Below, one piece after another: positions 12,454-30,751 of a stretch of DNA of 64,000 nucleotides; the stretch's first letter is position 1; the number at the start of each line of letters is the position of its first letter. Origin of the DNA: Verrucomicrobiales bacterium (lineage in GTDB: Bacteria; Verrucomicrobiota; Verrucomicrobiia; Verrucomicrobiales; V1-33); NCBI GenBank assembly GCA_028293125.1, contig JAQGPJ010000012.1, positions 62,001 through 126,000 on the forward strand, written 5' to 3'. The notes beneath the pieces were generated by a model, which was not told the origin of the DNA, ran no database searches, and was given only the letters and a program-made list of their open reading frames with translations. The translations under genes and the position numbers were made by a program.

Positions 12454-12986
12454 CAACCCATTACACCCATCACGACACCCCTGTCGGCCGCCTTTTGATC
12501 CAGGGAACGGACAACGGCCTGAGCGGCCTGTGGATCCTCGGTGAAAAACACGCTCCGACCGTGGCTCCGGAATGGAGGCGGAATGACAGAGCTTTCCCGG
12601 AAATCAGAAGCCAACTGGATGAATACTTTGCCGGCACCCGCACCGAGTTCGATGTTCCTTTAGCGGTTGAGGAGGGCACAGAGTTTCAACGGTCGGTCTG
12701 GGCGGCGCTGCTCCGCATTCCCTGCGGCATCACCAAAACCTACGGCCAGATGGCGGAGGAGATCGGCAATCCCAAAGCGGTCCGCGCCGTGGGCCTGGCC
12801 AATGGCCGCAATCCCGTCTCCATCATCGTTCCCTGCCACCGGGTGATTGGAGCCAATGGAACCCTTACCGGCTACGGCGGCGGTCTGAAGGCCAAAAGCT
12901 GGCTGCTTCACCATGAGCAGCGCCTAAAACCGCTGGCCGGACTAATGGGTTGGCATCAGCCGGCCAGCGGTGGATCTAGGCAATAA
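12450..12986 (+). CDS. ogt: Methylated-DNA--protein-cysteine S-methyltransferase
   Basis: A suicide repair protein that transfers methyl groups from O6-methylguanine in DNA to its own cysteine. The active site PCHRV is present with Cys129, preceded by the DNA-binding TYGQMAEEIGNPKAVRAVG and followed by LTGYGGGLKAKSWLLHHE. The 178-residue length is normal. Its ATG overlaps the stop of the Ada-AlkA fusion by 4 nt, so the two are probably translationally coupled. Together they supply the sensor, glycosylase and O6-alkyl repair activities of an adaptive response to alkylation. Confidence 0.92.
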   Translation: MTTHYTHHDTPVGRLLIQGTDNGLSGLWILGEKHAPTVAPEWRRNDRAFPEIRSQLDEYFAGTRTEFDVPLAVEEGTEFQRSVWAALLRIPCGITKTYGQMAEEIGNPKAVRAVGLANGRNPVSIIVPCHRVIGANGTLTGYGGGLKAKSWLLHHEQRLKPLAGLMGWHQPASGGSRQ

Positions 12987-13006
12987 TGGATGGAGGATGC
13001 TTTTGC

Positions 13007-13720
13007 TTACGGAGGGGAATCCCCGGGTGTCACCACCACCTCCTCACCGGCGGTGGTATGAATAACTCTGCGGTGCAGCAGTCGTCCTATCATAAAGCCG
13101 CCAGTGGCCAACACTACGGCCGTGATGAGCCAGACAGCCCAGGCAGTGGTTTGAGTTGCCGGATCGCGGAGAACAGAACTGATGGACGCCAGATAGCCCC
13201 CCATCGTGTTGGAGGCCTTGTACTCCGCCGCCTGGAGGTAGTAACTCAGAGGATAACCCGCGAGGCCGCCCGCCAGCAGTCCCAAGCCGGCAAGGGCGTA
13301 GGGGCCGCCCGCCTCATCGGCGGAGAAGCGTCCTCCGCCCGTCAGCAGCAGGGCACCAAAGCCGAACAGATACACAAGGGTCAGTTCGGCACCCGGTGCG
13401 GAGACATCACCTCCTTGGACCTGAAAAAAGATCACTCCCATCAGCACTGTCAGGGCGACGGCGGAAAGCCGTGTAAGAACCCCCGCGGCCAGCATGGCTC
13501 CGCCCAGCAGTTCGATGAAAGCCGCCAAGCCGAGCGTGAAGTGCCGCCCCATGCCAAGGGGATCGGGAAAGGTCTCCACGGTGGACTGGAAGTGGATAAA
13601 CTTCGGCCATCCGTGGAGAATAGCCATGGACCCTCCCAGGGTGACCCGCAGAAACAGCAGAGCCACATTCATCCAATGGGGGATGAATCCCAGATTTACC
13701 AGCCAAAGGGAGGGTCTCAT
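13007..13720 (-). CDS. DoxX-family membrane protein
   Basis: A 237-residue protein with several hydrophobic helices. The N-terminal half (LLFLRVTLGGSMAILHGWPKF, FIELLGGAMLAAGVLTRLSAVAL, LLTGGGRFSADE) matches the DoxX family. DoxX-like proteins occur in membrane redox complexes, but the function of this member is unknown. The C-terminal region adds a TM helix and a short hydrophilic tail beyond the usual DoxX core. ATGs at codons 1 and 17 are both possible starts. It ends 20 nt from the stop of the convergent ogt gene. Confidence 0.75.
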   Translation of the reverse strand: MRPSLWLVNLGFIPHWMNVALLFLRVTLGGSMAILHGWPKFIHFQSTVETFPDPLGMGRHFTLGLAAFIELLGGAMLAAGVLTRLSAVALTVLMGVIFFQVQGGDVSAPGAELTLVYLFGFGALLLTGGGRFSADEAGGPYALAGLGLLAGGLAGYPLSYYLQAAEYKASNTMGGYLASISSVLRDPATQTTAWAVWLITAVVLATGGFMIGRLLHRRVIHTTAGEEVVVTPGDSPP

Positions 13721-13731
13721 GGCTCGTGGAA

Positions 13732-13983
13732 TTAGACTTTCCTTTTGGTTAAGGCCCGGTAGGCGAACAGCAGGATCACAGCCCCGACAACGGAGAAGAT
13801 AAATCCGGCAGGCTCACCCGGGGCATACCAGCCCATAGCGCTTCCCAACCACCCGGCCAGTGCTGAGCCGGCAAGACCAAGAAGAATGGAGATAATCCAA
13901 CCGCCGGGGTCCTTGCCGGGCATGAGAAGCTTGGCGATGGCGCCGATGATAAAACCGATGATGATAGTGCCGATGATGTTCAT
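13732..13983 (-). CDS. GlsB/YeaQ/YmgE-family small membrane protein
   Basis: An 83-residue, glycine-rich protein of three hydrophobic segments: MNIIGTIIIGFIIGAIAKLL, then PGKDPGGWIISILLGLAGS, then FIFSVVGAVILLFAYRALTKRK. The spacing and the K-LLMPGKDPGG loop are typical of the transglycosylase-associated or GlsB/YeaQ group, which is linked to stress responses. The molecular role is unknown. The start at 13983 is used because the 79 upstream codons of open frame look non-coding. It is 11 nt upstream of the DoxX gene on the same strand. Confidence 0.85.
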   Translation of the reverse strand: MNIIGTIIIGFIIGAIAKLLMPGKDPGGWIISILLGLAGSALAGWLGSAMGWYAPGEPAGFIFSVVGAVILLFAYRALTKRKV

Positions 13984-14167
13984 AGCTGCGGCCTCTTCTG
14001 CAAACACTGTGCCACAGCCTTCCAACGGGGAAAAGAGGGTGCTTTCCGCAAAATCATGAGGCGAAATGACAGAGCCGGCAGGCATGGACGGGCATTCCGC
14101 GGCATGAAGGCCGCATTCAGTTAGGAAATTGCGCCCGCGGCCGCGGTCGTGGCCAGTCTTTCCAAAA

Positions 14168-15148
14168 TCAGCCGAAGGCGTGCAGAAAGCCAACCTCCAA
14201 AGCCAGCACCTCGCGCACATTGGTGGATAGGTTTTTCCTCATCTCATCCACCGCGCGCAGGCGGCGGTGAAGGTCATGATCTGTCATAACAGCGGCCGCT
14301 TGGGCAGTGGCATCGGCGCATCCGGGCAGGTCCAAAGCGTCCAGGCCGTGGCGTCGGCGCAGGATTTCCCCCAGCCAGATGAAGAGCAGGGAGACGAGGT
14401 GGTTCCGCTGCTCGGCGCAGGCGCTTTCCGTCAGGTCATCATAATACTCCCGCCGGTTGCGCAGCCAGACCCCGTCGGTGCTGCGCTGGTAATGCTCTGT
14501 CTCCTCTTTCAAAGCATCGTGATGGTCCGCTTCGATCTCCTCCCGCAGGCTGGACAGGATGCGCTGGAAATCCCCCAGAAGCCCCAGAGCCCGCGACGTG
14601 CCGACCGGCCGGCCGGCGGAGAAGCATTCGGTCAGGGACTCCAGCAGCCGGGCCTGCGGCGGGCTGAGCTCCATGCCGCCGCTGTCGGGCCGGTGGAGTG
14701 GCAGCAGCAGGCAGCGGGACCGGACGGTGTCGAGAAGCTGTTCCGGAGCCCGGGTGAGCAGAAGAATGAGGGTGTCCGGCGGCGGCTCCTCCAAGGTCTT
14801 GAGAAACGCATTGGTGGCCTCCACCGTGAGGCGGTCGGCCCCGTTCAGGATCACAATTTTCATGCCGCCATCGGCGGACGAGAACTGCAGCGTGCGGATC
14901 ACCTCCCGCACGGCATCGATTTTGATCCGCCGCAGCTTGGATTCCGGCTCCAGCACCAGCGCCCCCTTCAGACGCAGGCCGTCCAAGGAATCCACGGGGG
15001 CCCAGCTGTTCACCAGACAGGCGGTCCGGATGGCCACCGTGTGCAGATCGGCGGTGTGCGGTCCGCTGAGGAGCAGGGCATGGGCCAGCCGCTGGTTCCC
15101 CCACGCCGTGCGGATCAGGGAGATGGCTTTGTCAGGGGAGAAGGCCAT
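14168..15148 (-). CDS. holB: DNA polymerase III delta' subunit
   Basis: A 326-residue clamp-loader subunit. Typical features are the N-terminal NQRLAHALLLSGP, the region IDAVREVIRTLQFSSADGGMKIVILNGADRLTVEATNAFLKTLEEPPPDTLILLLT, and the RSRC (SRC) motif contacting the neighbouring ATPase. The P-loop is degenerate (SGPHTADLHT), as is normal for the delta' subunit, which does not hydrolyse ATP. It overlaps the end of tmk by 17 nt, a common bacterial pairing of thymidylate kinase and holB. Confidence 0.88.
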   Translation of the reverse strand: MAFSPDKAISLIRTAWGNQRLAHALLLSGPHTADLHTVAIRTACLVNSWAPVDSLDGLRLKGALVLEPESKLRRIKIDAVREVIRTLQFSSADGGMKIVILNGADRLTVEATNAFLKTLEEPPPDTLILLLTRAPEQLLDTVRSRCLLLPLHRPDSGGMELSPPQARLLESLTECFSAGRPVGTSRALGLLGDFQRILSSLREEIEADHHDALKEETEHYQRSTDGVWLRNRREYYDDLTESACAEQRNHLVSLLFIWLGEILRRRHGLDALDLPGCADATAQAAAVMTDHDLHRRLRAVDEMRKNLSTNVREVLALEVGFLHAFG

Positions 15149-18240: not shown

Positions 18241-19422
18241 TCACGACAGACCCTCAGCGGTCTCCTGCTTCAGGCGGAGCTGGCCGCAGGCGGCGTCGAT
18301 GTCGTGGCCCTTCTCACGGCGGATGGTGGCGGGGACCCCATTGGCCACGAGCGTGGCGCAGAAGGCATCCTGCTCCGGCTCGCCGGGGCGGACCCAGGGC
18401 AAACCCTCGACCGTGTTGTAGGGGATGAGATTCACCTTGGCCTCCAGGGCGCGGGTGCGGCGGGCGAGGGCACGGGCCTCGTCCAAGCCGTCGTTCACTC
18501 CCTGGATCAGAATATACTCGAGGGTGATCTTCTGTTTCCGGCGCTGTTTGAAATAACGCAGAGCCTCAAAAAGGGTCTCCAGAGGGTATTTTTCATTCAC
18601 GGGCATGATGCGGTTCCGCACCTCGTCCGTGGCCCCGTGCAGGGATATGGCCAGGCGCACGGGGATATCGAAGTCCGCCAGTTTTTTGATCTGGGGGGCC
18701 AGACCGCTGGTGGAGACCGTAATGTGCCGCGCGCCGATGTTCAGACCCCAGTGGGCCTGAAGGATGGTCAGGGCTCGGGTCAGGTTGGTGAAGTTGGCCA
18801 AGGGCTCGCCCATGCCCATGAAGACCAGATTGTCCACCCGCTCGCCGGCCTCCCGTTCCGCCAGCATGACCTGGCCAACGATCTCATCGGCCTGCAGATT
18901 GCGCGTGAAGCCCGCCAAGCCGCTGGCGCAGAATTTACAGTCATAGGCGCAGCCGACCTGGCTGGAGACGCACAGCGTCAGGCGGTCGCTCTGGCCGCCC
19001 ATCCAGCCCTTGTTGGCGGGGATGAGGACGCTCTCCACATAGCGCCCGTCCGCCAGCCGGAACAGAAACTTCCGCGTCGCGTCCCGCGCACCTTGGATTT
19101 TGGCCACGCTCATGGGGTTGAAGGGAAAGCGCTCCGCGAGCTGGTCCCGCAGCGCCTGGGGCAGATTGGTCATCTCCCCGAAGCTGCGGGCCCTCTTTTG
19201 AAAAATCCATTCCTGCACCTGCTTGGCGCGGTAGGGCTTGCCGCCGGCCTCAACAATGGCGGCGGTGAGCTCCTCCGGCAGCAGGCCTGCCAGGGACAGG
19301 GCGGGAGCGGGGGCTTTTCTGACTGGGGCAGGGGCAGGGGCTGGGACTGGTTCCGTTTCCGTGATCACGTCGGGAATATAATGCAGCCCGGGGCCGCGTC
19401 CATGGCTAAGGCGGCGCGTCAA
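18241..19422 (-). CDS. rlmN: Dual-specificity 23S rRNA A2503 / tRNA A37 C2-methyltransferase
   Basis: A radical SAM methyltransferase. The CxxxCxxC cluster is in VGCAYDCKFCASGLAGF, FMGMGEPLAN is the family glycine motif, and RRKQKITLEYILIQGVND plus CGQLRL near the end are typical. Start choice is open. I favour TTG at 19422 because GGAGG lies 6 nt upstream with a TATAAA box just before it. A GTG at 19476 gives 18 more residues; a GTG nearer the conserved core is also possible. A Pro/Ala-rich linker (about residues 20-45) precedes the conserved domain. The protease gene at 19514 is divergent. Confidence 0.9.
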   Translation of the reverse strand: MTRRLSHGRGPGLHYIPDVITETEPVPAPAPAPVRKAPAPALSLAGLLPEELTAAIVEAGGKPYRAKQVQEWIFQKRARSFGEMTNLPQALRDQLAERFPFNPMSVAKIQGARDATRKFLFRLADGRYVESVLIPANKGWMGGQSDRLTLCVSSQVGCAYDCKFCASGLAGFTRNLQADEIVGQVMLAEREAGERVDNLVFMGMGEPLANFTNLTRALTILQAHWGLNIGARHITVSTSGLAPQIKKLADFDIPVRLAISLHGATDEVRNRIMPVNEKYPLETLFEALRYFKQRRKQKITLEYILIQGVNDGLDEARALARRTRALEAKVNLIPYNTVEGLPWVRPGEPEQDAFCATLVANGVPATIRREKGHDIDAACGQLRLKQETAEGLS

Positions 19423-19513
19423 GTGCCTCCTCCGTGTTTTATAAAAAAAAGGCGCGTCGCCCCGCGCTTTTGTCACGCATAAAGTGAATCAACCCCTTAT
19501 TTAAGTTTAACCT

Positions 19514-22518: not shown

Positions 22519-22564
22519 TTGACTTCGTGTCCAGATTACACCATAAATCGTGTATGCATTACAC
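22519..22564 (+). promoter_or_regulatory. Predicted sigma-70 promoter with overlapping dyad half-sites for the NADAR cluster
   Basis: TTGACT (22519-22524) and CATAAA (22542-22547) are separated by 17 nt. Around the -10 box the half-site TTACAC occurs at 22536-22541 and 22559-22564 in one orientation, with GTGTA at 22550-22554 in the other. This is an operator-like arrangement. The leader to the first ATG is about 120 nt. The regulator is unknown. Confidence 0.55.
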
Positions 22565-22674: not shown

Positions 22675-23247
22675 ATGAACACCACACCACCGCTTTCCAC
22701 GGAGGAACTGATCTCCACCATGCGGCAGGGATGGGAGCCGAAGTGGGCTTTCTTCTGGGGCCACACCCTGTCGAAGGACGGGTCGGTCACCAAATCCTGT
22801 TTTAGTCAGTGGTGGGCCGGCAATGCCTTCACTTTGGAAGGAATCACCTACCCCACTGCCGAGCACTGGATGATGGCGGAGAAGGCGAGGCTGTTCCACG
22901 ACAGGAAAGGTTTGGCGAATATCCTCACTGCCAAAAGTCCGGCGGTTGCCAAAAAGCTGGGCCGTCAGGTGGCCGGTTTCGAGGAGGAAATCTGGCTGCG
23001 GCACCGCTGGGAAATCGTGCTGCGGGGCAATGCCGCCAAGTTCGGCCAGCACCCGGAGCTGAAACAGTTTCTCCTCGGCACCGGTGACCGCATTCTGGTC
23101 GAGGCCAGTCCCTATGACCGGGTCTGGGGCATCGGTCTTGCCGCCACCCACGCCGACGCCGCCCGGCCTGAAAACTGGAAAGGCCTGAACCTTCTGGGTT
23201 TTGCCCTGATGGAGATCCGCCGGCAATTTCAAAGCCCGCTGTCATGA
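22675..23247 (+). CDS. NADAR-domain protein (ADP-ribose-linked hydrolase)
   Basis: A 190-residue NADAR/YbiA-like protein. The conserved blocks are present: AFFWGH, FSQWWAGNAFTLEGITYPTAEHW with the E-H pair, MMAEKARLFHD, KFGQHPELKQFLLGTGDRILVEAS and PYDRVWGIGL. Characterised NADAR enzymes cleave N-glycosidic bonds to ADP-ribose or ribose phosphate, including removal of ADP-ribose from guanine in DNA. It is the first gene of a tightly packed cluster and overlaps the next by 4 nt. The start at 22675 is used because the upstream open frame runs through the promoter. The target here is unknown. Confidence 0.88.
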   Translation: MNTTPPLSTEELISTMRQGWEPKWAFFWGHTLSKDGSVTKSCFSQWWAGNAFTLEGITYPTAEHWMMAEKARLFHDRKGLANILTAKSPAVAKKLGRQVAGFEEEIWLRHRWEIVLRGNAAKFGQHPELKQFLLGTGDRILVEASPYDRVWGIGLAATHADAARPENWKGLNLLGFALMEIRRQFQSPLS

Positions 23248-23585
23248 GCACTCTTACTTTATACCGCCCCGTCGGCCTGCAGGAACTCGCTCTGATTGAG
23301 CAAAGCGGCTGGACGGCCTTTCCGCCGCGCCTGCCGGAGCAGCCCATTTTTTATCCCGTGATGAACGAGGAATACGCCATCCAAATCGCGCGGGACTGGA
23401 ATGTCCCAGCATCCGGATCAGGCTATGTCACCCGCTTTCAGATGGATGCCGGATTCGCCAGCCGGTATCCGGTGCAGGTGGCCGGCAGCGGAGTTCACCG
23501 CGAACTCTGGATACCTGCCGAGGATCTGGCGGAGTTCAACCGGCACATCACCGGCCTCATTGAGGTCACCCACCGTTTTCCATGA
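23244..23585 (+). CDS. Small protein with ADP-ribosyltransferase-like features
   Basis: A 113-residue soluble protein. It starts LTLYRPVGLQELALIEQSGW, continues IFYPVMNEEYAIQIARDW, and ends with HRELWIPAEDLAEFNRHI. The order Arg8 in LYRPV, Tyr37 or Tyr44, then Glu87 in RELWIPAE resembles the R-Y-E layout of ADP-ribosyltransferase folds. The ELWIPAE segment also recalls VERVPAE in the KptA protein encoded at the end of this cluster. Databases often attach a crystallin J1/ADP-ribosylation label to such proteins because of neighbouring genes. That it transfers ADP-ribose is an inference. It overlaps genes on both sides by 4 nt. Confidence 0.6.
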   Translation: MSTLTLYRPVGLQELALIEQSGWTAFPPRLPEQPIFYPVMNEEYAIQIARDWNVPASGSGYVTRFQMDAGFASRYPVQVAGSGVHRELWIPAEDLAEFNRHITGLIEVTHRFP

Positions 23586-24221
23586 CTCTCACCGTTCATC
23601 CTTATTCAGAGCAGCTTGAGCGCTGGCCGCGTTCGGGACGTCACATCCTGGCGCAGTTCGATGACGACTCCATCGTGGTCTATCAGGCCTACCGACCTGC
23701 GATCGCTCGGTTCGCCCGGCAACATCAGCGGTTTGGCGGTGAGTTCAGCTTCAGCCGCATGAGCTGGATCAAACCCAACTTTCTGTGGATGATGCACCGC
23801 TCCGGGTGGGCCACGAAGGAGGGGCAGGAGCACATCCTGGCGGTGCGGCTCAGGCGCGCCTTTTTCGACGAGGTGCTTCAATCCTCCGTGGCCTCCTCCT
23901 TTGGAGCCAGCGGCTATGCGGAGCATGAGGAATGGAAGGCAGCGCTCGCCGGTTCCGACGTCCGGCTGCAATGGGATCCCGATCACGACCCCCACGGACA
24001 CCCCGTGCAGCGCCGCGCTGTGCAGCTTGGACTGCGCGGGGAAATGCTCCGGCCGCTATGCCGAAACCGAGTTGCTCGGCATTGAGGACGTCACCGCCTT
24101 TACCTCGGAACAGCGCGGGTGCCTTCACTCCTCCGGCACGGGGAATCTCCTGACTCCTACTGAATACGTCTATCAACCCTCCACTCCCGCCGCAGCCTTG
24201 GCCGCCGGCATTGAATCATGA
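23582..24221 (+). pseudogene. DUF4291-family protein interrupted by a +1 frameshift
   Basis: The first 157 residues (RHILAQFDDDSIVVYQAYRP, FSRMSWIKPNFLWMMHRSGW, LQWDPDHDPHG, QLGLRGEMLR) match DUF4291 proteins. In the native frame the sequence then reads PLCRNRVARH and stops at 24085. Skipping one C at 24053 restores RYAETELLGIEDVTAFTSEQ and the expected C-terminus, ending at 24221. That end overlaps the next ATG by 4 nt, exactly like the other junctions in this cluster. The reading frame was therefore intact recently, or the extra C is an assembly error. The biochemical role of DUF4291 is not known to me; repeated company of ADP-ribose enzymes suggests a NAD-linked activity. Confidence 0.8.
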
Positions 24222-25162
24222 CTCCTGAATCCAGAATCCTTGGCGGCCTTTACGGCTTCCTCATCGGTGATGCGCTCGGCGTGCCCGTGGAGTTCAAGCC
24301 CCGCGCGGACCGCGTCCTCGATCCGGTGACGGACATGCGCGACTACGGCACCCATGGCCAGCCCAAGGGCACATGGTCGGATGACGGGGCTCTGCTGCTC
24401 TGCTCCGTGGAGAGTCTGGTGGAGAAGGGTGGATTTGATTCCCAGGACATGGGGGAGCGGTATCTGCGCTGGTCCACCTACGGCCTGTGGACGGCGCACG
24501 GAGTGCTTTTCGATATTGGATTCGCCACCCGTGCGGCGCTGCGGCGGATTGAGAAGGGCTGCCCTGCGGAGATCGCCGGAGGGACGGATGAACACAGCAA
24601 TGGCAACGGCTCGCTGATGCGGATCCTGCCCATGCCTCTGGCCTCGCTGAATGAAGGTGATGATGTGCTTGAGGACCGGATCTTCCGGGCGTCGGCGATC
24701 ACTCATGCTCACGACCGTTCAAAACTGGCCTGTTTGATGCACGGGCTGGTGACACGGTTTCTGATGCAGGGCCAGGATGCCGGTGCCGCCGTCCGTCAGG
24801 CGCAGGGGATTTTCACTCAACGGTATAAGGCGCATCCGGAGTTCCCAGCATTCCGGCAGGTCCTAGACCCGTTGCTGAGCCAGACTCCGGAGCATGAAAT
24901 CGGATCGGACGGTTATGTGATGGCCACTCTCGCCGCCTCCCTTTGGTGCCTGCTGACAACATCGGATTTCTCCGGATGCGTGCTCAAAGCGGTGAATCTC
25001 GGCGATGACACGGACACCACCGGCTGTGTGGCCGGAGGCTTGGCGGGAGTGCTTTACGGGCTGGAGGCCATTCCGCCGGAATGGATCAGCGTTCTGCCGC
25101 GTCAGGATGATCTGCGAAGGCTGTTTGACAAATTTTTGAAATTCACAGGCACTTCGTCATGA
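24218..25162 (+). CDS. ADP-ribosylglycohydrolase family protein (first of two)
   Basis: A 314-residue ARH/DraG-like hydrolase. The binuclear metal site is complete: Ser54-Asp55-Asp56 in GTWSDDG, and Asp263, Asp264 and Asp266 in NLGDDTDTTG. The N-terminal GGLYGFLIGDALGVPVEF and the middle EHSNGNGSLMRILPM are family hallmarks. It would release ADP-ribose from a modified protein, nucleic acid or small molecule. It overlaps the previous gene (in corrected frame) and the next gene by 4 nt each. The subgroup differs from the following ADP-ribosylglycohydrolase, so the two probably act on different substrates. Confidence 0.92.
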   Translation: MTPESRILGGLYGFLIGDALGVPVEFKPRADRVLDPVTDMRDYGTHGQPKGTWSDDGALLLCSVESLVEKGGFDSQDMGERYLRWSTYGLWTAHGVLFDIGFATRAALRRIEKGCPAEIAGGTDEHSNGNGSLMRILPMPLASLNEGDDVLEDRIFRASAITHAHDRSKLACLMHGLVTRFLMQGQDAGAAVRQAQGIFTQRYKAHPEFPAFRQVLDPLLSQTPEHEIGSDGYVMATLAASLWCLLTTSDFSGCVLKAVNLGDDTDTTGCVAGGLAGVLYGLEAIPPEWISVLPRQDDLRRLFDKFLKFTGTSS

Positions 25163-26085
25163 ACGCCTCCACGGTCATACCGGAGCAGGACCGGCTGAAC
25201 TTGGCCATGCTGTCCTTGGACGGCCTTTCGGTCGGAGACGCGTTTGGGCAGAGCTTTTTCTTTGTGCCTCCCGCTGTTGCCGACAGCCGTCAGGCTGAGC
25301 GCCATATACCTCCCCCACCTTGGTTTTACACGGATGACACTGTCATGGCTGCAGCGGTCGTGAAGTGCCTTGGACGGCACGGAAAGATTGATCAGGATTG
25401 GCTGGCGGATGAATTTGCGCGTGAATACCGCCGTGAGCCCGACCGGGGTTATGGAGGAACTGCGCGGGGAATCCTTCACCGCATCGGTGAGGGAATGCCG
25501 TGGAAGGACGCCGCTGCCGAGGTTTTCGATGGGGAGGGCTCATGCGGCAACGGCGGGGCAATGAGAGCCGCTCCGGTGGGGGCTTGGTTCCATGATGATT
25601 TGAAAGAGCTGGTCGAGCAGGCCAAACGGTCAGCGGTCGTCACGCACTTCCATCCTGACGGTCAGGCCGGTGCCATTGCTGTGGCGCTCGCCGCCGCCTG
25701 GATGGTCACCCAATTGGATAACCAGCGGCCCCGCAGCCACTGCATGATCGAGTTTGTGCTCGCCCATCTGCCGCAGACGGAAACATGGTGGAGGCTGAAA
25801 AAGGCGCTGACGCTGCCGCTGGAAATGTCGCCGCGGACGGCGGCGTCGATTCTCGGCAATGGTTCGCAGGTGATCTCCTCCGACACCGTGCCTTTCTGCC
25901 TCTGGTGTGCGTGCCGTCATGCGGACGACTACACCGAAGCGCTCTGGAGCGCGGTGGGTGTGCAGGGCGATATGGATACCAACTGCGCGATTGTGGGCAG
26001 TCTGGTGACTTTGGGAACCGGTTATGAAGGCATTCCGGCGGACTGGCTCGCGGCGCGTGAACCTTTGCAGAGCCGGTTGTCATGA
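25159..26085 (+). CDS. ADP-ribosylglycohydrolase family protein (second of two)
   Basis: A 308-residue ARH-fold hydrolase. Thr58-Asp59-Asp60 (FYTDDTVM) and Asp271-x-Asp273-Thr274 (QGDMDTN) supply the metal ligands, and CGNGGAMRAAPVGAWF is the central family block. Compared with the preceding paralogue it has GDMDTN in place of GDDTDT and little other identity, so it is not a recent duplication. The stop overlaps the DUF1152 start by 4 nt. Confidence 0.9.
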   Translation: MNASTVIPEQDRLNLAMLSLDGLSVGDAFGQSFFFVPPAVADSRQAERHIPPPPWFYTDDTVMAAAVVKCLGRHGKIDQDWLADEFAREYRREPDRGYGGTARGILHRIGEGMPWKDAAAEVFDGEGSCGNGGAMRAAPVGAWFHDDLKELVEQAKRSAVVTHFHPDGQAGAIAVALAAAWMVTQLDNQRPRSHCMIEFVLAHLPQTETWWRLKKALTLPLEMSPRTAASILGNGSQVISSDTVPFCLWCACRHADDYTEALWSAVGVQGDMDTNCAIVGSLVTLGTGYEGIPADWLAAREPLQSRLS

Positions 26086-27023
26086 ACCTTCCCGTTTTCC
26101 AGCATCTGGCGACCTCGCAAAACATCCTCATCGCCGGGGCTGGCGGTGGATTCGATGTGTTTGCGGGTTTGCCACTTTATTTCTGGCTGCGTGATCAAGG
26201 GAAAACGGTGCATCTGGCCAACTGGTCCTTCGCCAGCTTGGCGCATTGTGAGGAAAAGCCGCTGTCACAGCTGGCGGTGGTGCGGGGAAACACCTACGGA
26301 TCATCGGAATACTTCCCGGAGAAATATCTCGCTCAATGGCTGGAATCGCAGGGTGACCGGACACCCGTTCACGCTATCGAACCGGGCGGGGTGAAGCCAG
26401 TGCTGCGAGCTTATGAATGGATGGCTGAGCGTCTGGGTTTCGACACTCTGATTCTTATCGATGGGGGCACGGACATTCTGATGCGCGGCGACGAGTGCGG
26501 GCTTGGAACGCCGCAGGAGGATATCGCCTCCCTGGCGGCGGCCCATGAGTCGAAAGGCGGTCTGCGGAAATTGGTGATCTGCCTCGGCTTGGGAGTGGAC
26601 ACGCATCACGGGGTCTGCCACGCGCACTTTCTGGAGAATGCGGCGGCCATTGCGGCTGACGGCGGGCACTTGGGCACTTGGAGTCTACTGTGGGAAATGC
26701 CGGAGGCGCGCCTTTATGTGGAGGTGGTGAAATTTGTCCATCAGCGCATGCCGGCGCGGCCCAGTATCGTGAACACCAGCATTGTGAATGCCGTGAAGGG
26801 ACGTTTCGGCGACGTGCACGCCACGGAGAGAACCCGTGGCTCGCGTCTTTTCATCAATCCGCTCATGAGCCAGTACTGGGCCTTTGACCTCGAAGCTGTG
26901 GCCTCCCGGAACCGCTATCTGGCACGTCTGCTCACCACCGACACATACCACGAGGTCACCAGCCGCATCGCCAACTATCACCGGCAGCAGAAGCACCGTC
27001 CCTGGACGGAAATCCCCATTTGA
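26082..27023 (+). CDS. DUF1152-domain protein
   Basis: A 313-residue soluble protein matching DUF1152. It begins with a Rossmann-like loop (NILIAGAGGGFDVFAGLPLYFWL). A strand then ends LILIDGGTDILMRGDE, and the motifs VICLGLGVDTHHGVCHAHFLEN and RMPARPSIVNTSIVNAVKGRFGD follow. The glycine loop suggests nucleotide or dinucleotide binding. No catalytic activity is established to my knowledge. It overlaps the second ADP-ribosylglycohydrolase gene by 4 nt and is 33 nt from the radical SAM gene, marking the border between the ADP-ribose half and the biosynthetic half of the cluster. Confidence 0.8.
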   Translation: MNLPVFQHLATSQNILIAGAGGGFDVFAGLPLYFWLRDQGKTVHLANWSFASLAHCEEKPLSQLAVVRGNTYGSSEYFPEKYLAQWLESQGDRTPVHAIEPGGVKPVLRAYEWMAERLGFDTLILIDGGTDILMRGDECGLGTPQEDIASLAAAHESKGGLRKLVICLGLGVDTHHGVCHAHFLENAAAIAADGGHLGTWSLLWEMPEARLYVEVVKFVHQRMPARPSIVNTSIVNAVKGRFGDVHATERTRGSRLFINPLMSQYWAFDLEAVASRNRYLARLLTTDTYHEVTSRIANYHRQQKHRPWTEIPI

Positions 27024-27056: not shown

Positions 27057-28415
27057 ATGACCGCCGCAATCCACCCTGCAACAGCCGCCGCCGAAGCCTT
27101 TTGGCATGTCACAGTGCTGTCGAATTTTGCCCGTGGGTATGACAAATATTCCCGGCGTTACTCCAAGGCGTCGATCCCGGAGAGCACCTTTCCAGAGCGC
27201 TTTTTCCTGCTGAGAGAGGATGAACTGGCGGCGGGTGTCCACAAGGCCGGCGGGCTGCTGCGGAGGCTGGGCATTCCGGGGAATAGGCTGGTTGCGCTGA
27301 GGACGGAGGTGGATGCCGGTGAGCTTCGGGAAAACATCCGCACGGGCATCGGCCGGTACGTGGAGCGGGGCTGGATCACGCTGTCCGGTGTGGCGTGGGT
27401 GGGGGAGGAAGGGGAGGGCGGTCCTTTGGAGCCGGCGGTGATCGAGGAGGTGATGGCGGAATCGCTGCGGCTGCTGCACGGCTCCCTGCACGCGTTTGAG
27501 TCGCTGCGGCCAAGGTCATTTTCGGTGCTGCCGGTGGCCCGGGGATGCCAGGCGTCGTGCCCGTTCTGTTTCTCCGACGCCTCGGCCTCGGCGGAGCAGG
27601 ATCAGGCGCGGCTGAATCTGGCCCGTGTGGCGGAGCACGCGCTTCAGGCGGCGGAGCGGGGCGCGGGGCGTTTTGTGATCACCGGAGGCGGGGAGCCCGG
27701 TCTGCTGCGGCATGAGGTGATGCGGGAGCTGATCGCCCTGGGCCGTCCGCTGGGCAAAACGGTGCTCATCACCAACGGACATCATCTGGCGCGGAAAGAG
27801 AGCGCGGCGCGGTCGGCCATGCTGGACGACTATGCCCGATCCGGGCTGGGCGTGCTGGCGGTCTCGCGCCATCACCATGACGACGGCGTGAGCACCCGGC
27901 TGATGAGCCTCGAGACGGATGTCAGGGCGGTGGCGCAAACCTGGCGGGAAGGGCGGGACCATTGGCCGGCTTTGAGCATGCGGCTGATCTGCGTGCTCCA
28001 GCGCGGGGGTGTGGACAACAGGCAGACGCTGGAGGATTACGTCTCCTGGGCCGCCGCATGCGGCATTGGCGAGATCTGCTTCAAGGAGCTGTATGTCAGT
28101 ACGAGCGCGGAGTCTGTCTATCACCGCCACGCGGCCAATGCCTGGAGCCATGCCCATCAGGTGCCACTGTCGTTGGTGTTGGAATTTGCCGACCGGCACG
28201 GCTTCACCGAGGTGTCGCGGCTGCCGTGGGGATCACCCGTGTTTCAGGGGGAATGGCGCGGGGCTCTTCTGCGAATCGCGGCTTACACGGAGCCGAGCCT
28301 GTTATGGGAGCGCACCCACGGCATCGCCCGCAGCTGGAATCTGATGGCGGATGGGCGCTGCCTGGTTTCGCTGGAGGACCGCGGCAGTGAAATCCAACTT
28401 GCCCCCGCCGCATGA
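27057..28415 (+). CDS. Radical SAM enzyme
   Basis: A 452-residue protein with the [4Fe-4S] motif Cys164-x3-Cys168-x2-Cys171 in VARGCQASCPFCFSD, a GGGEPGLL glycine motif at the usual distance, and LITNGHHLA and VSRHHHDDG further on. An N-terminal region of about 150 residues has no recognised domain. There is no SPASM-type Cys cluster near the end. The substrate is unknown. It is followed, with a 4-nt overlap, by a PLP-fold protein and then a methyltransferase, as in pathways that build a modified small molecule or nucleoside. Confidence 0.85.
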   Translation: MTAAIHPATAAAEAFWHVTVLSNFARGYDKYSRRYSKASIPESTFPERFFLLREDELAAGVHKAGGLLRRLGIPGNRLVALRTEVDAGELRENIRTGIGRYVERGWITLSGVAWVGEEGEGGPLEPAVIEEVMAESLRLLHGSLHAFESLRPRSFSVLPVARGCQASCPFCFSDASASAEQDQARLNLARVAEHALQAAERGAGRFVITGGGEPGLLRHEVMRELIALGRPLGKTVLITNGHHLARKESAARSAMLDDYARSGLGVLAVSRHHHDDGVSTRLMSLETDVRAVAQTWREGRDHWPALSMRLICVLQRGGVDNRQTLEDYVSWAAACGIGEICFKELYVSTSAESVYHRHAANAWSHAHQVPLSLVLEFADRHGFTEVSRLPWGSPVFQGEWRGALLRIAAYTEPSLLWERTHGIARSWNLMADGRCLVSLEDRGSEIQLAPAA

Positions 28416-29401
28416 CCTTTCAGGAATTCCAAACCGCCCGCCTCTGCTTGCTGACTGACCGCCCTGAACTGCTGGACTGCGGGGAGACCAACCTGTACCG
28501 GGCTCTGGCGCGGCTGATGCCGGAGCCGGCAACGCCCGTGGAAGGCCCTGTCCACCGCTGCCATCTGGCCAGCCAGTGGACGGAGTTTTACGGCCTGCCC
28601 GAAGCCGTCTCGCGCCGCGCCTTTATTACAGAGGGAGTCCGGAATGGACTGGATACCCTCTTCGCCCACTTGGCCGGAAAGCCGTGTCTGCTGTGGCTGC
28701 CGGAGGACAACTATCCGGTTTACCGGGAACTGGCCGCCGCCCATGGACACCAAGTGCGGACCTTTCCCACCCTGCCGGAGGTGCGGTGGCCTGACGCCCC
28801 CCCTCCATCGGGTGTGGATGATGAATGGCTGCTGGTCACCCATCCCCTCAAACCGCGTGGCGGACCCCTGAGTCCGGAAAGCGCCGGCGCTCTCCGGGAA
28901 TGGCTGGCCGCCAGCGACCGGCGGCGGGCCCTGCTGGACACGGTGTATCAGCTGGAGTCCCGGTTTGACGATGTCACTCTACAGCTTCTGGAAACCGGGC
29001 AGGCGGTCCTGCTGCACTCCCTGACCAAGGGCTGGCTGCATCCGCGCTGCTTTGGGGTGGTGCTCATGCCGGAGCGGGACGCGGACGAGTGGATGCCGGT
29101 ATTCCGGGCCAAAGTCCCAACGCAGGCCAACCTGGTAACCGCCCGGTATCTGATGGCTCTCCATGCGGAGATGCCAGGAAAAGTGAAACGTGAACTGCAA
29201 ACGGCCCAGATCCGCCTGCTGGAAAGACTGGCGGGGCTGCCTTTCAAACTCCTGCCCGTGGATCCCGCCAGCTACTTCGTGCCGGTGGAGGGCTCCTGGG
29301 ATGCTTTGCTGAAGCGCGGCATCCTCGGCGTGCCGGCCAGCGCGTTTGGCTCCAAGGAAATTGGCCTCACCCTTCTCACCAGCCTTCATTTTCTGTCATG
29401 A
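28412..29401 (+). CDS. PLP-dependent aminotransferase-like protein (fold type I)
   Basis: A 329-residue protein related to class I/II aminotransferases. Asp176-x-x-Tyr179 (LLDTVYQ) and Lys206 (HSLTKGWLHPRCFG) match the PLP-binding Asp, Tyr and Schiff-base Lys, with Arg212 near the usual Arg. The site usually reading NPxNPTG is THPLKPRGG, so a cofactor-contacting Asn appears to be missing. The chemistry may therefore be altered. It overlaps both neighbours by 4 nt and is probably co-translated with the radical SAM enzyme and methyltransferase. Confidence 0.7.
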   Translation: MTFQEFQTARLCLLTDRPELLDCGETNLYRALARLMPEPATPVEGPVHRCHLASQWTEFYGLPEAVSRRAFITEGVRNGLDTLFAHLAGKPCLLWLPEDNYPVYRELAAAHGHQVRTFPTLPEVRWPDAPPPSGVDDEWLLVTHPLKPRGGPLSPESAGALREWLAASDRRRALLDTVYQLESRFDDVTLQLLETGQAVLLHSLTKGWLHPRCFGVVLMPERDADEWMPVFRAKVPTQANLVTARYLMALHAEMPGKVKRELQTAQIRLLERLAGLPFKLLPVDPASYFVPVEGSWDALLKRGILGVPASAFGSKEIGLTLLTSLHFLS

Positions 29402-30156
29402 TCTCCCTAGACTGCCTGCCGATTTACGCGGACGCCGGATTCTATGATATGGAGTTCGAGGAGCGCCGTCATGAACTGCCGTTTTTCCATCGGCTTTCCA
29501 CGGAGATCGGCGGCCCCGTGCTGGAAGTAGCCTGCGGCACAGGACGCCTCACCATTCCCATTGCGCAGGACGGTGTGGACATCACGGGGCTTGATGTGTC
29601 CCGCCCCATGCTGGAGCGGGCGCGGGTGAAGGCGCAAAAAGCCGGCGTCAGGATTCCCTGGCTGGAGCAGGACTGCCGCTCTATGCGGCTGGACCAATCC
29701 TTCGCCCTGATCTTCTCCGCCACCAATGCCATGCAGCACCTGCTGGACATAGAATCCGTCCACGCTTTTCTGTGCGGTGCCCGGCAAGCGCTGCGGCCCG
29801 GCGGGCGCCTGGTGATTGATGTTTTCAATCCCGTGCTGACCAAGCTGCTCCGGAAGGCGGATGACCGGTATGGGTTCAAAACCCTGCCTCATGCCGACGG
29901 CGGACCGATCACGGTCGAGGCTGGCAGCGAATACCGGGCGGACACGCAAATCCTTCACTTCGATCTCTTTTACATCCGCTCCGGAGAACTGCTGCGGACC
30001 AAAAATGTGAACATGCGCGTCTTTTTTCCGCAGGAGCTGCTGGCGCTCTGCCAGTGGAGCGGCCTGCGGGTTCTGGAGCGGCTGGGGGATTATGATGGCA
30101 GTCTCTTCACCGTCGGATCACCGAAGCAGATTCTGATCTGTGAGGCCGTCTCCTGA
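29398..30156 (+). CDS. Class I SAM-dependent methyltransferase
   Basis: A 252-residue Rossmann-fold methyltransferase. Motif I is VLEVACGTGRLTIPIA (residues 41-56). The acidic loop ITGLDVSRPML follows, and the later motif RQALRPGGRLVIDVFNP is conserved. The substrate cannot be read from the sequence. It overlaps the PLP-fold gene by 4 nt and ends 34 nt before kptA. Confidence 0.85.
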   Translation: MISLDCLPIYADAGFYDMEFEERRHELPFFHRLSTEIGGPVLEVACGTGRLTIPIAQDGVDITGLDVSRPMLERARVKAQKAGVRIPWLEQDCRSMRLDQSFALIFSATNAMQHLLDIESVHAFLCGARQALRPGGRLVIDVFNPVLTKLLRKADDRYGFKTLPHADGGPITVEAGSEYRADTQILHFDLFYIRSGELLRTKNVNMRVFFPQELLALCQWSGLRVLERLGDYDGSLFTVGSPKQILICEAVS

Positions 30157-30190: not shown

Positions 30191-30751
30191 ATGAATTCCG
30201 AGCGGAGCACCCGCATCAGCAAATTTTTAAGTCTCGTGCTGCGGCATCAGCCGGAGACTGCCCATGTGCAGCTGGACAAGGCGGGATGGGTGGAGGTGCA
30301 GGCCCTGCTGGCGGGCTGCGCCAAAGCGCGCCGGCCAATCTCCAAATCGGATTTGGAGCACGTGGTGGAGACGAATGCCAAGAAGCGCTTTGAATTCAGC
30401 GCCGACGGTCGGAACATCCGGGCCAGTCAGGGGCACTCCGTGGCCGTGGAGCTGGACTACACCCCGCAGGAGCCGCCGGAGATGCTTTACCATGGCACGG
30501 CCACGCGCTTTCTGGACTCCATCCACGCACACGGACTGCGGCGGATGCAGCGTCATCACGTGCACCTCTCCGCCGAAACCCAAGTCACCCTGCAGGTCGG
30601 TGCCCGGCATGGAAAGCCCGTGCTGCTGACCATTCAGGCCGGGGCCATGCACCGTGCGGGTCATGTGTTTTACCGCAGCACCAACGGCGTGTGGCTCGTG
30701 GAGCGGGTGCCGGCGGAGTTCATCCTCTTTCCCGCATCCCCTGCCGGCTGA
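30191..30751 (+). CDS. kptA: RNA 2'-phosphotransferase (Tpt1/KptA family)
   Basis: A 186-residue enzyme of the family that uses NAD to remove an internal 2'-phosphate from RNA, giving ADP-ribose 1''-2''-cyclic phosphate. Diagnostic motifs are SKFLSLVLRHQPE, GWVEVQALL, RFEFS, MLYHGTATRF, HHVHLSAE and NGVWLVERVPAEF. The start at 30191 fits the family; an earlier in-frame start overlaps the methyltransferase gene. Bacteria generally lack the tRNA-splicing pathway that gives eukaryotic Tpt1 its substrate. Its place at the end of an ADP-ribose cluster suggests a dedicated role here. Confidence 0.92.
   Translation: MNSERSTRISKFLSLVLRHQPETAHVQLDKAGWVEVQALLAGCAKARRPISKSDLEHVVETNAKKRFEFSADGRNIRASQGHSVAVELDYTPQEPPEMLYHGTATRFLDSIHAHGLRRMQRHHVHLSAETQVTLQVGARHGKPVLLTIQAGAMHRAGHVFYRSTNGVWLVERVPAEFILFPASPAG

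Follow-up and report, generated by a model that had tools for sequence, protein, structure and literature searches.

A radical-SAM and PLP enzyme pair with a predicted NrtR-type operator in an ADP-ribose operon of a Verrucomicrobiales bacterium

Layout of the operon and its promoter

The window, a 64-kb stretch of DNA from a Verrucomicrobiales bacterium, contains an operon on the plus strand that opens with a NADAR-domain protein of the ADP-ribose/riboflavin-intermediate N-glycosidase family (22675..23247, ATG at 22675; Pfam PF08719, E 6.7e-53). It is followed by g2 (23244..23585), a protein of 113 aa without family match which also lies beside NADAR in other phyla, by a DUF4291 protein (23582..24085; PF14124, E 1.3e-56), two ADP-ribosylglycohydrolases (ARG; 24218..25162 and 25159..26085; PF03747, E 5e-75 and 2.5e-56) and a DUF1152-like protein (26082..27023; PF06626, 64 bits against a cutoff of 27). 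Next comes a trio of genes at 27057-30156, encoding a radical-SAM enzyme (rSAM, 27057..28415), a PLP enzyme of fold type I (28412..29401) and a SAM methyltransferase (MT, 29398..30156). The last gene encodes a KptA/Tpt1 RNA 2'-phosphotransferase (30191..30751; NCBIfam equivalog, 261 bits against 239), whose translation could alternatively begin at an in-frame GTG at 30140. The three reading frames of the trio and the 4-nt overlaps at both of its junctions, as given in the preliminary description, were confirmed, and the Pfam and NCBIfam matches to NADAR, DUF4291, both ARG and KptA/Tpt1 confirm the ADP-ribose setting that it had assigned to the operon. No ADP-ribosyltransferase family was matched by Pfam in the window operon, where KptA itself adopts the ART fold and no family is assigned to g2. 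Neither a riboswitch nor a tRNA was detected in the window at the gathering threshold.

Two NrtR-type operators lie in tandem on the plus strand upstream of the NADAR gene. The first (TTGACTTCGTGTCCAGATTACAC, 22519..22541) overlaps the -35 hexamer of the operon promoter, and the second (GTGTATGCATTACAC, 22550..22564) contains the ATG (22554) of a putative nrtR remnant, which starts with MHYTYHLR compared to MLHTYKYP in the sibling locus L012. It looks as if a local nrtR gene was lost from the window while its predicted operators were retained.

Operons for ADP-ribose removal are already known. The window operon shares with the ARG-centred operons the ADP-ribosylglycohydrolase core, the NADAR accessory and the modular make-up, and its relatives also share the Nudix-HTH regulator and, in L012, a phosphatase of the rhodanese/DSP type (Iyer et al. 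2022, PMC9503650). It differs from them by the addition of KptA, DUF4291 and the rSAM-PLP-MT cassette, and by having operators and a putative remnant in place of a local nrtR gene. No coupled phosphatase was found by Pfam in the window operon; such a phosphatase occurs in little over half of the ARG-centred systems and is therefore not strictly defining (PMC9503650). The words 'radical' and 'aminotransferase' are absent from the main text of that study, and in the literature searched we found no description of a radical-SAM and PLP unit as a member of the regulon of NrtR, an NAD sensor.

The enzymes encoded by the trio

The rSAM protein (452 aa) consists of an N-terminal part of about 150 residues without family match and a MoaA/viperin-like core, which carries the cluster motif CxxxCxxC (C164/C168/C171) and matches Pfam Radical_SAM with 41.9 bits (cutoff 29.5). 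The best profile matches of the core include AbmM, viperins and MoaA, and the fold matches include MoaA, viperin, BlsE and DesII, so that enzymes acting on nucleotides are among its closest relatives of solved structure; residues 1-106 are not covered by the structural matches listed. Characterised members of the viperin/MoaA/AbmM/BlsE group act on nucleotides or nucleosides, and a nucleotide substrate would fit these matches of the core, which are suggestive only, since radical-SAM cores all look alike; the top VIA-align match is a lipid enzyme, GDGT-MAS. In contrast to this group, the rSAM has its additional N-terminus, an obligate PLP partner and conserved motifs of its own (SRHH, CFKELYVS and SWNLMAD), and it scores far below the family cutoffs. 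Searches of Pfam, NCBIfam, PHROGs and PADLOC gave only superfamily-level matches for both the rSAM and the PLP enzyme.

The PLP enzyme is class I aminotransferase-like, and not DegT-like, by both profile and fold (AlphaFold2 model with a mean pLDDT of 93.6; class I aminotransferase fold, Z ~27). Asp176, Tyr179 and Lys206, which had been described as retained, are indeed invariant in an alignment of 16 homologs. The motif THPLKPRGG is present at residues 143-151, as reported. Its deviation from NPxNPTG had been taken as a hint of altered chemistry, but we rejected the motif as a special chemical signature, because position 144, the equivalent of the Asn, differs between family members, which have H, N, A, D or other residues there. 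Class I aminotransferases have an Arg in the C-terminal strand that binds the alpha-carboxylate and is normally needed for the amino donor. In the alignment of the 16 homologs no conserved Arg was found after P308, in the C-terminal strand of the PLP enzyme. The apparent lack of this residue is more telling than THPLKPRGG, and the PLP enzyme could, without a carboxylate Arg, be something other than a transaminase.

The MT matches Pfam Methyltransf_25 with 74.6 bits (cutoff 27) and is kin to amine N-methyltransferases, its nearest relatives being CcbJ, CypM/YunM, DesVI and a daptide methyltransferase. It is missing from most rSAM-PLP loci and is accessory to the rSAM-PLP core. In desosamine formation DesII, DesV and DesVI, a radical-SAM enzyme, a PLP enzyme and an N-methyltransferase, act in sequence on a nucleotide-linked sugar. 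The trio comprises the same three enzyme types, and DesII and DesVI are among the structural and sequence matches; however, the PLP enzyme of the window belongs to another class than DegT, the identity is low and no sugar-nucleotide genes lie nearby.

A separable pair within a predicted NrtR regulon

The rSAM gene lies beside a PLP gene in every one of the 24 bacterial loci that have a full-length homolog, and in the Gemmatales loci L017, L018, L021 and L065-L067 both are joined in a single PLP-rSAM ORF. An adjacent rSAM-PLP pair is also carried by one jumbo phage, which in addition encodes ARG and NADAR. Computation supports the pair of rSAM and PLP enzyme as the unit, with an obligate and sometimes fused pairing. 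Locus L072 is an outlier, with a partial rSAM match of 37% and no PLP gene found. The rSAMs of the phage loci L040 and L041 align with the family by hhalign with a score of 111, compared to 31 for a BioB control, which is a distant one.

The trio is located in the operon as first described, but it is separable from it: in a related genus, operons with NrtR, DUF4291, ARG and KptA, some of them also with NADAR, g2 or DUF1152, do without the trio (L097-L102), and pairs without ADP-ribose neighbours stand alone in Nannocystis, Embleya and Phycisphaerales. Since each occurs without the other, the trio behaves as a cassette, and our computations support its insertion into a pre-existing ARG/NADAR/KptA operon; the view that it is integral to the ADP-ribose operon was rejected. 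The distribution of the pair is patchy, and close relatives can usually do without the cassette. ARG, NADAR, KptA and NrtR are recurrent neighbours of the pair in Verrucomicrobiota, Acidobacteriota, Gammaproteobacteria and Gemmatales. A single clade of ADP-ribose-linked loci was also rejected, as the tree mixes linked and standalone loci and at least two changes are needed.

The pattern TTGAC-N3-GTGT-N7-ACAC has a single match in the window, at the operon promoter, and none in 100 shuffles; the shorter GTGTN7ACAC occurs twice in the 64 kb (expected 0.26), both times at this promoter, and none of the 100 shuffles reached two. In the whole 6.48-Mb genome the exact palindrome has two sites, one at the window operon and one upstream of nrtR-NAPRT-Macro-PncA, and NrtR itself is represented by a single PF21906 match (contig C52, E 3e-29). 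In relatives the same pattern precedes nrtR or NAD genes, and NrtR heads the sibling operons L012, L014, L015 and L097-L102. From this we infer that the palindrome probably serves as operator of the NAD/ADP-ribose sensor NrtR. NrtR-family regulators can also govern pentose use. Known NrtR regulons likewise have a palindromic operator with N7 spacing, both at NAD genes and at nrtR, which regulates itself, with ADP-ribose as the likely effector (PMC6800001, PMC4666351); the N7 spacing is found in mycobacterial sites as well, from which the half-site GTGT/ACAC differs (PMC6800001), and ADP-ribose releases NrtR from DNA (PMC4666351). The NrtR proteins considered here keep an intact Nudix signature, whereas classical NrtR regulators have lost it.

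The operator also accompanies pairs outside of ADP-ribose operons. A gammaproteobacterium has three sites, at nrtR-NadA, at NMNAT/Nudix-NAMPT and at a standalone rSAM-PLP pair, and the three sites of a myxobacterium lie at an ARG gene, a PP2C gene and again a standalone pair. Of 11 NrtR-positive genomes, nine, which span four phyla, have GTGTN7ACAC within 450 nt upstream of the rSAM-PLP unit, and none of 12 NrtR-negative genomes has it there (Fisher p 7e-5); in six of the 11 the only NrtR of the genome sits at the rSAM locus. A match to the operator pattern in genome G397, which has no NrtR, was taken as chance. Control by NAD is not universal, because NrtR is absent from 12 of the 23 rSAM genomes tested and the NrtR-positive genomes of L070 and L071 have no operator. 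Nevertheless, membership of the rSAM-PLP unit in the NrtR regulon is well supported by the shared predicted operator. Since even two standalone pairs share it, the operator ties the pair to NAD/ADP-ribose metabolism, and among the evidence for this predicted link it is the strongest. The preliminary description had seen the trio as a biosynthetic module tied to ADP-ribose, with a hypothetical product that might be conjugated to it or released from it. The trio does look biosynthetic, and operator, neighbours and the relatives of the rSAM uphold the tie, while the unit shrinks to the pair. The counter-evidence that had been named, a trio often met in unrelated settings and yielding a known product, was not found: standalone copies exist, but none with a known product, and two of them keep the operator.

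A possible route in ADP-ribose metabolism and its alternatives

We slightly favor the reading that the rSAM-PLP core, assisted by an accessory N-methyltransferase of the amine type, is part of the NAD/ADP-ribose (NrtR) regulon and works on an NAD-derived nucleotide. The pathway would perhaps consist of oxidation, then amination and an optional N-methylation. Consumption of NAD and a rise in ADP-ribose would make NrtR let go of the DNA, and the pair would be made alongside NAD salvage proteins and ADP-ribose hydrolases. The 5'-deoxyadenosyl radical of the rSAM may then attack a sugar carbon of the nucleotide, with ADP-ribose as prime candidate, to give a keto or otherwise activated intermediate. 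At the attacked position the PLP enzyme might catalyze an amination or elimination without the classic amino-acid carboxylate clamp, and the new amine could be N-methylated where an MT is present. The likeliest purpose would be to salvage, detoxify or repurpose fragments of ADP-ribose or NAD after ADP-ribosylation or NAD depletion.

Other explanations are less likely. Infection could deplete NAD and induce the pair to make a viperin-like chain-terminating or inhibitory nucleotide. Such an anti-phage function would agree with the patchy distribution, with the high rank of viperin-family models among the matches to the rSAM core (31 bits, and 41 bits with the phage homolog) and with the proposal of ARG-centred operons as anti-phage systems (PMC9503650). 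We consider it unlikely, as 31 bits is well under the viperin cutoff of 180, viperins work without a PLP partner, the operator is common to housekeeping NAD genes and a pair in a jumbo phage would be odd for an antiviral. Modification or repair of RNA ends or tRNA, the trio acting with KptA and RlaP on RNA ends or ADP-ribosylated RNA, appears rather improbable. KptA lies directly 3' of the trio or pair in the window, L012 and L014, L024 encodes two RlaP proteins, and distant rSAM relatives adjoin KptA in phage L040; yet Pfam recognised no RNA-binding domain, RNA-repair genes are absent from most pair loci, and KptA is kept in trio-free operons and hence does not depend on the trio.

An extra route of NAD synthesis, with the pair producing or rescuing a precursor of the pyridine or nicotinamide kind, is just as improbable. 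Genomes in which the pair occurs with NAD genes are already equipped with NadA and NAMPT/NAPRT, a radical-SAM and PLP pair features in no known pyridine route, and close relatives mostly dispense with the cassette, although the operator is common to NadA, NAMPT, NMNAT and NAPRT and phage NAD-salvage genes lie near distant rSAM relatives. It is very improbable that the genes make an unrelated secondary metabolite and were placed in the operon by chance; the standalone pairs of Nannocystis, Embleya and Phycisphaerales would fit, but the NrtR-type operator at pairs in four phyla, standalone copies included, and the repeated association with ARG, NADAR and NrtR speak against it.

Returning to an NAD-derived nucleotide as the substrate, we propose only tentatively, as an idea that may well prove wrong, that the pair represents an unrecognised branch of NAD/ADP-ribose metabolism, in which an NrtR-controlled rSAM and PLP enzyme, fused or separate and with or without MT, would act on ADP-ribose or a different nucleotide derived from NAD and yield an aminated nucleotide, which may in addition be N-methylated. 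This branch would exist in four or more bacterial phyla as well as in a jumbo phage. Being made up of only two genes, or in some cases a single protein, under a predicted switch, the pair is directly testable. If the proposal is true, cells and at least one large phage would have in radical chemistry a new means of processing fragments of ADP-ribose or NAD, and the pair would stand at the crossing of NAD homeostasis, ADP-ribosylation by toxins and phages, and RNA repair.

A radical-SAM and PLP gene pair within an ADP-ribose operon

The trio of radical-SAM, PLP-fold and methyltransferase genes with 4-nt overlaps, as given in the preliminary description, was confirmed by ORF coordinates and family matches. 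The genes for a radical-SAM protein (rSAM, 27057-28415, + strand), a PLP fold-type-I protein (PLP, 28412-29401, +) and a class I methyltransferase (MT, 29398-30156, +) overlap by 4 nt at both internal junctions. They belong to an operon with the order NADAR (starting at 22675, +), g2, DUF4291, ARG1, ARG2, DUF1152, rSAM, PLP, MT and KptA (30191-30751, +), whose junctions are mostly 4-nt overlaps, with gaps of 132, 33 and 34 nt. Another radical-SAM gene of the window (18241-19476, - strand; Pfam match G000:C19:80487-80966) is unrelated to the trio. The g2 gene (23244-23585, 113 aa) has no match in Pfam or NCBIfam; judged by eye, it might encode a small ART-like domain. It recurs near NADAR or ADP-ribosylglycohydrolase (ARG) genes in Verrucomicrobiota, one gammaproteobacterium (55% identity) and Deinococcus. 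Plasmids of Streptomyces and three records of huge phages also carry g2; its conserved motifs are LYRP, FPPRL..QPIFYPV.N..YA and ELW[IV]PA.

The core of the trio is the pair of rSAM and PLP. PLP adjoins rSAM in all 24 bacterial loci having a full-length rSAM homolog, both genes are adjacent with a 4-nt overlap in a jumbo phage, and in Gemmatales they are fused into a single ORF of ∼745-840 aa with the PLP portion first. The sole exception seen, locus L072, has a partial rSAM match (37%) and no PLP gene. An intact MT occurs in the window and three sibling loci (L012, L014, L015). On an Embleya plasmid a truncated MT (L011:14330-14815; 55% identity over 74 residues) follows PLP with a 4-nt overlap, indicating that the three-gene form was once present outside Verrucomicrobiota; its downstream portion is replaced by unrelated sequence.

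A cassette with NAD/ADP-ribose neighbours

rSAM was found in 1 of 387 sampled genomes of the window's phylum and 3 of 337 of its order, in 6/102 genomes of the order Gemmatales, and in 9/192, 1/250 and 2/321 genomes of one myxobacterial, one Acidobacteriota and one gammaproteobacterial class, respectively. One contig scan of ∼85,000 species yielded 14 rSAM loci, a plasmid collection two records (both Embleya), and viral contigs a single phage of 465 kb. This wide but patchy distribution is expected for a transferred cassette. In a related genus, six genomes carry the operon without the trio (ARG2 70-73% identical) in the order NrtR, sometimes NADAR, DUF4291, ARG1, ARG2 and KptA, with g2 and DUF1152 in some; ARG1 was not detected in one of them (L099). 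Where the trio is present in such operons (window, L012 and L014), it is flanked by an ARG gene on one side and KptA on the other, with DUF1152 additionally in between in the window. Conversely, standalone pairs occur in Nannocystis, Embleya, Phycisphaerales and others. The phylogenetic profile suggested in the preliminary description thus has an answer: each half occurs without the other, as trio-free operons and standalone pairs, and the trio is a cassette.

Despite this cassette nature, the link of the pair to NAD/ADP-ribose is strong. Its neighbours in Verrucomicrobiota and one gammaproteobacterium include ARG, NADAR, KptA, PARG, RlaP, NadA, an NAD-kinase-like protein and DUF4291; NrtR, an NAD/ADP-ribose sensor, neighbours it in Acidobacteriota, and ARG in three Gemmatales. 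Eleven rSAM genomes encode an NrtR-type regulator, and in six of them the only NrtR of the genome sits at the rSAM locus. The earlier reading of a biosynthetic trio tied to ADP-ribose is partly supported, by these neighbours and by NrtR-type operators. At the gammaproteobacterial locus the NAD-kinase-like protein (L024:5145-6131, - strand) is divergent and adjoins DUF4291, a Band-7 protein, NadA and NrtR. The jumbo-phage contig with the pair encodes ARG and NADAR elsewhere, and on two more large phage contigs a distant rSAM relative with the SRHH motif lies near a gene that we read from its sequence as NAMPT-like (L040:9917-12121 and 12907-14493; L041:9914-12666), in L040 also beside KptA and a HAD-like protein. 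For the phage-borne pair, NAD/ADP-ribose handling fits better than an antiviral product.

A putative NrtR-type operator upstream of the pair

Alignment of regions upstream of nrtR gave the pattern TTGAC-N3-GTGT-N7-ACAC, a palindrome over the -35 hexamer. The window contains it once (22519-22541; none in 100 shuffles), and bare GTGTN7ACAC twice (0.26 expected), both at the operon promoter. The second copy includes the ATG of an apparent nrtR remnant, suggesting that an nrtR gene once present here has disappeared and left its operators behind. Across the 6.48-Mb genome there are two exact matches to the pattern, one at the trio operon promoter and one upstream of the sole nrtR of the genome; behind this nrtR come NAPRT, a Macro-domain gene and a PncA-like isochorismatase-family gene.

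The operator accompanies the pair even where the pair is standalone. A gammaproteobacterium (G1530) has three exact sites, ahead of nrtR-NadA, NMNAT/Nudix-NAMPT and the standalone pair. A myxobacterium (G656) also has three, one each at an ARG gene, at a PP2C gene and at the standalone pair, the last 13 nt ahead of the start codon; in Acidobacteriota (L016) a palindrome TAGTGTACGCAGTACACTA lies immediately upstream of rSAM. GTGTN7ACAC was present in the 450 nt ahead of the unit containing rSAM in 9/11 NrtR-positive versus 0/12 NrtR-negative genomes (Fisher p = 7e-5, only indicative because the genomes are not fully independent). The two NrtR-positive genomes lacking it (L070, L071) belong to the deepest rSAM clade of the tree. 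Published mycobacterial NrtR sites are likewise N7-spaced palindromes (8-N7-8; PMC6800001), and characterised NrtR proteins come off DNA with ADP-ribose (PMC4666351); we infer from sequence that NrtR binds the candidate operator. In contrast to classical NrtR, the Nudix signature is intact in the regulators of L012, L014, L015, L016, L024 and L104, which may thus be sensors that also hydrolyse their ligand. In two Myxococcota a PP2C-type phosphatase gene is preceded by an NrtR-type operator or nrtR (L123:1509-2336; L108:2263-3021, the latter by sequence reading alone), which may represent a signalling arm of this regulon.

Putative chemistry and regulon membership

The predicted rSAM model (pLDDT 89.8) falls in the part of radical-SAM space occupied by MoaA and viperin, and the best solved relative by profile is AbmM (E 3e-7), followed by viperins, anaerobic sulfatase maturase and MoaA. 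VIA-align of the model also lists GDGT-MAS, BlsE and DesII, so that the ranking by itself is no proof of a nucleotide substrate. Further residues that never vary are, among others, C312, C341, K343-E344 and the SRHH motif; C312 and SRHH are shared by distant phage rSAMs. The PLP protein (pLDDT 93.6; class I aminotransferase fold, Z ∼27) retains the PLP Lys, Asp and Tyr. Since its aligned homologs conserve neither the Asn of NPxNPTG nor the C-terminal Arg, the usual clamping of the alpha-carboxylate is probably absent. MT is nearest to amine N-methyltransferases, namely the daptide methyltransferase model (84 bits, under the cutoff of the model), CcbJ, CypM/YunM and DesVI. Desosamine assembly on a nucleotide sugar proceeds through oxidation, amination and N-methylation in sequence. 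By analogy, the trio would most likely oxidise, then aminate and then N-methylate its substrate.

Our search, covering part of the literature, found no paper mentioning both NrtR and radical SAM, and the main text of a study on ARG-centred operons (PMC9503650) is silent on radical SAM. What the analysis adds is that the rSAM-PLP pair is a recurrent predicted member of the regulon of an NAD sensor in four phyla, with NrtR binding deduced from the operators.
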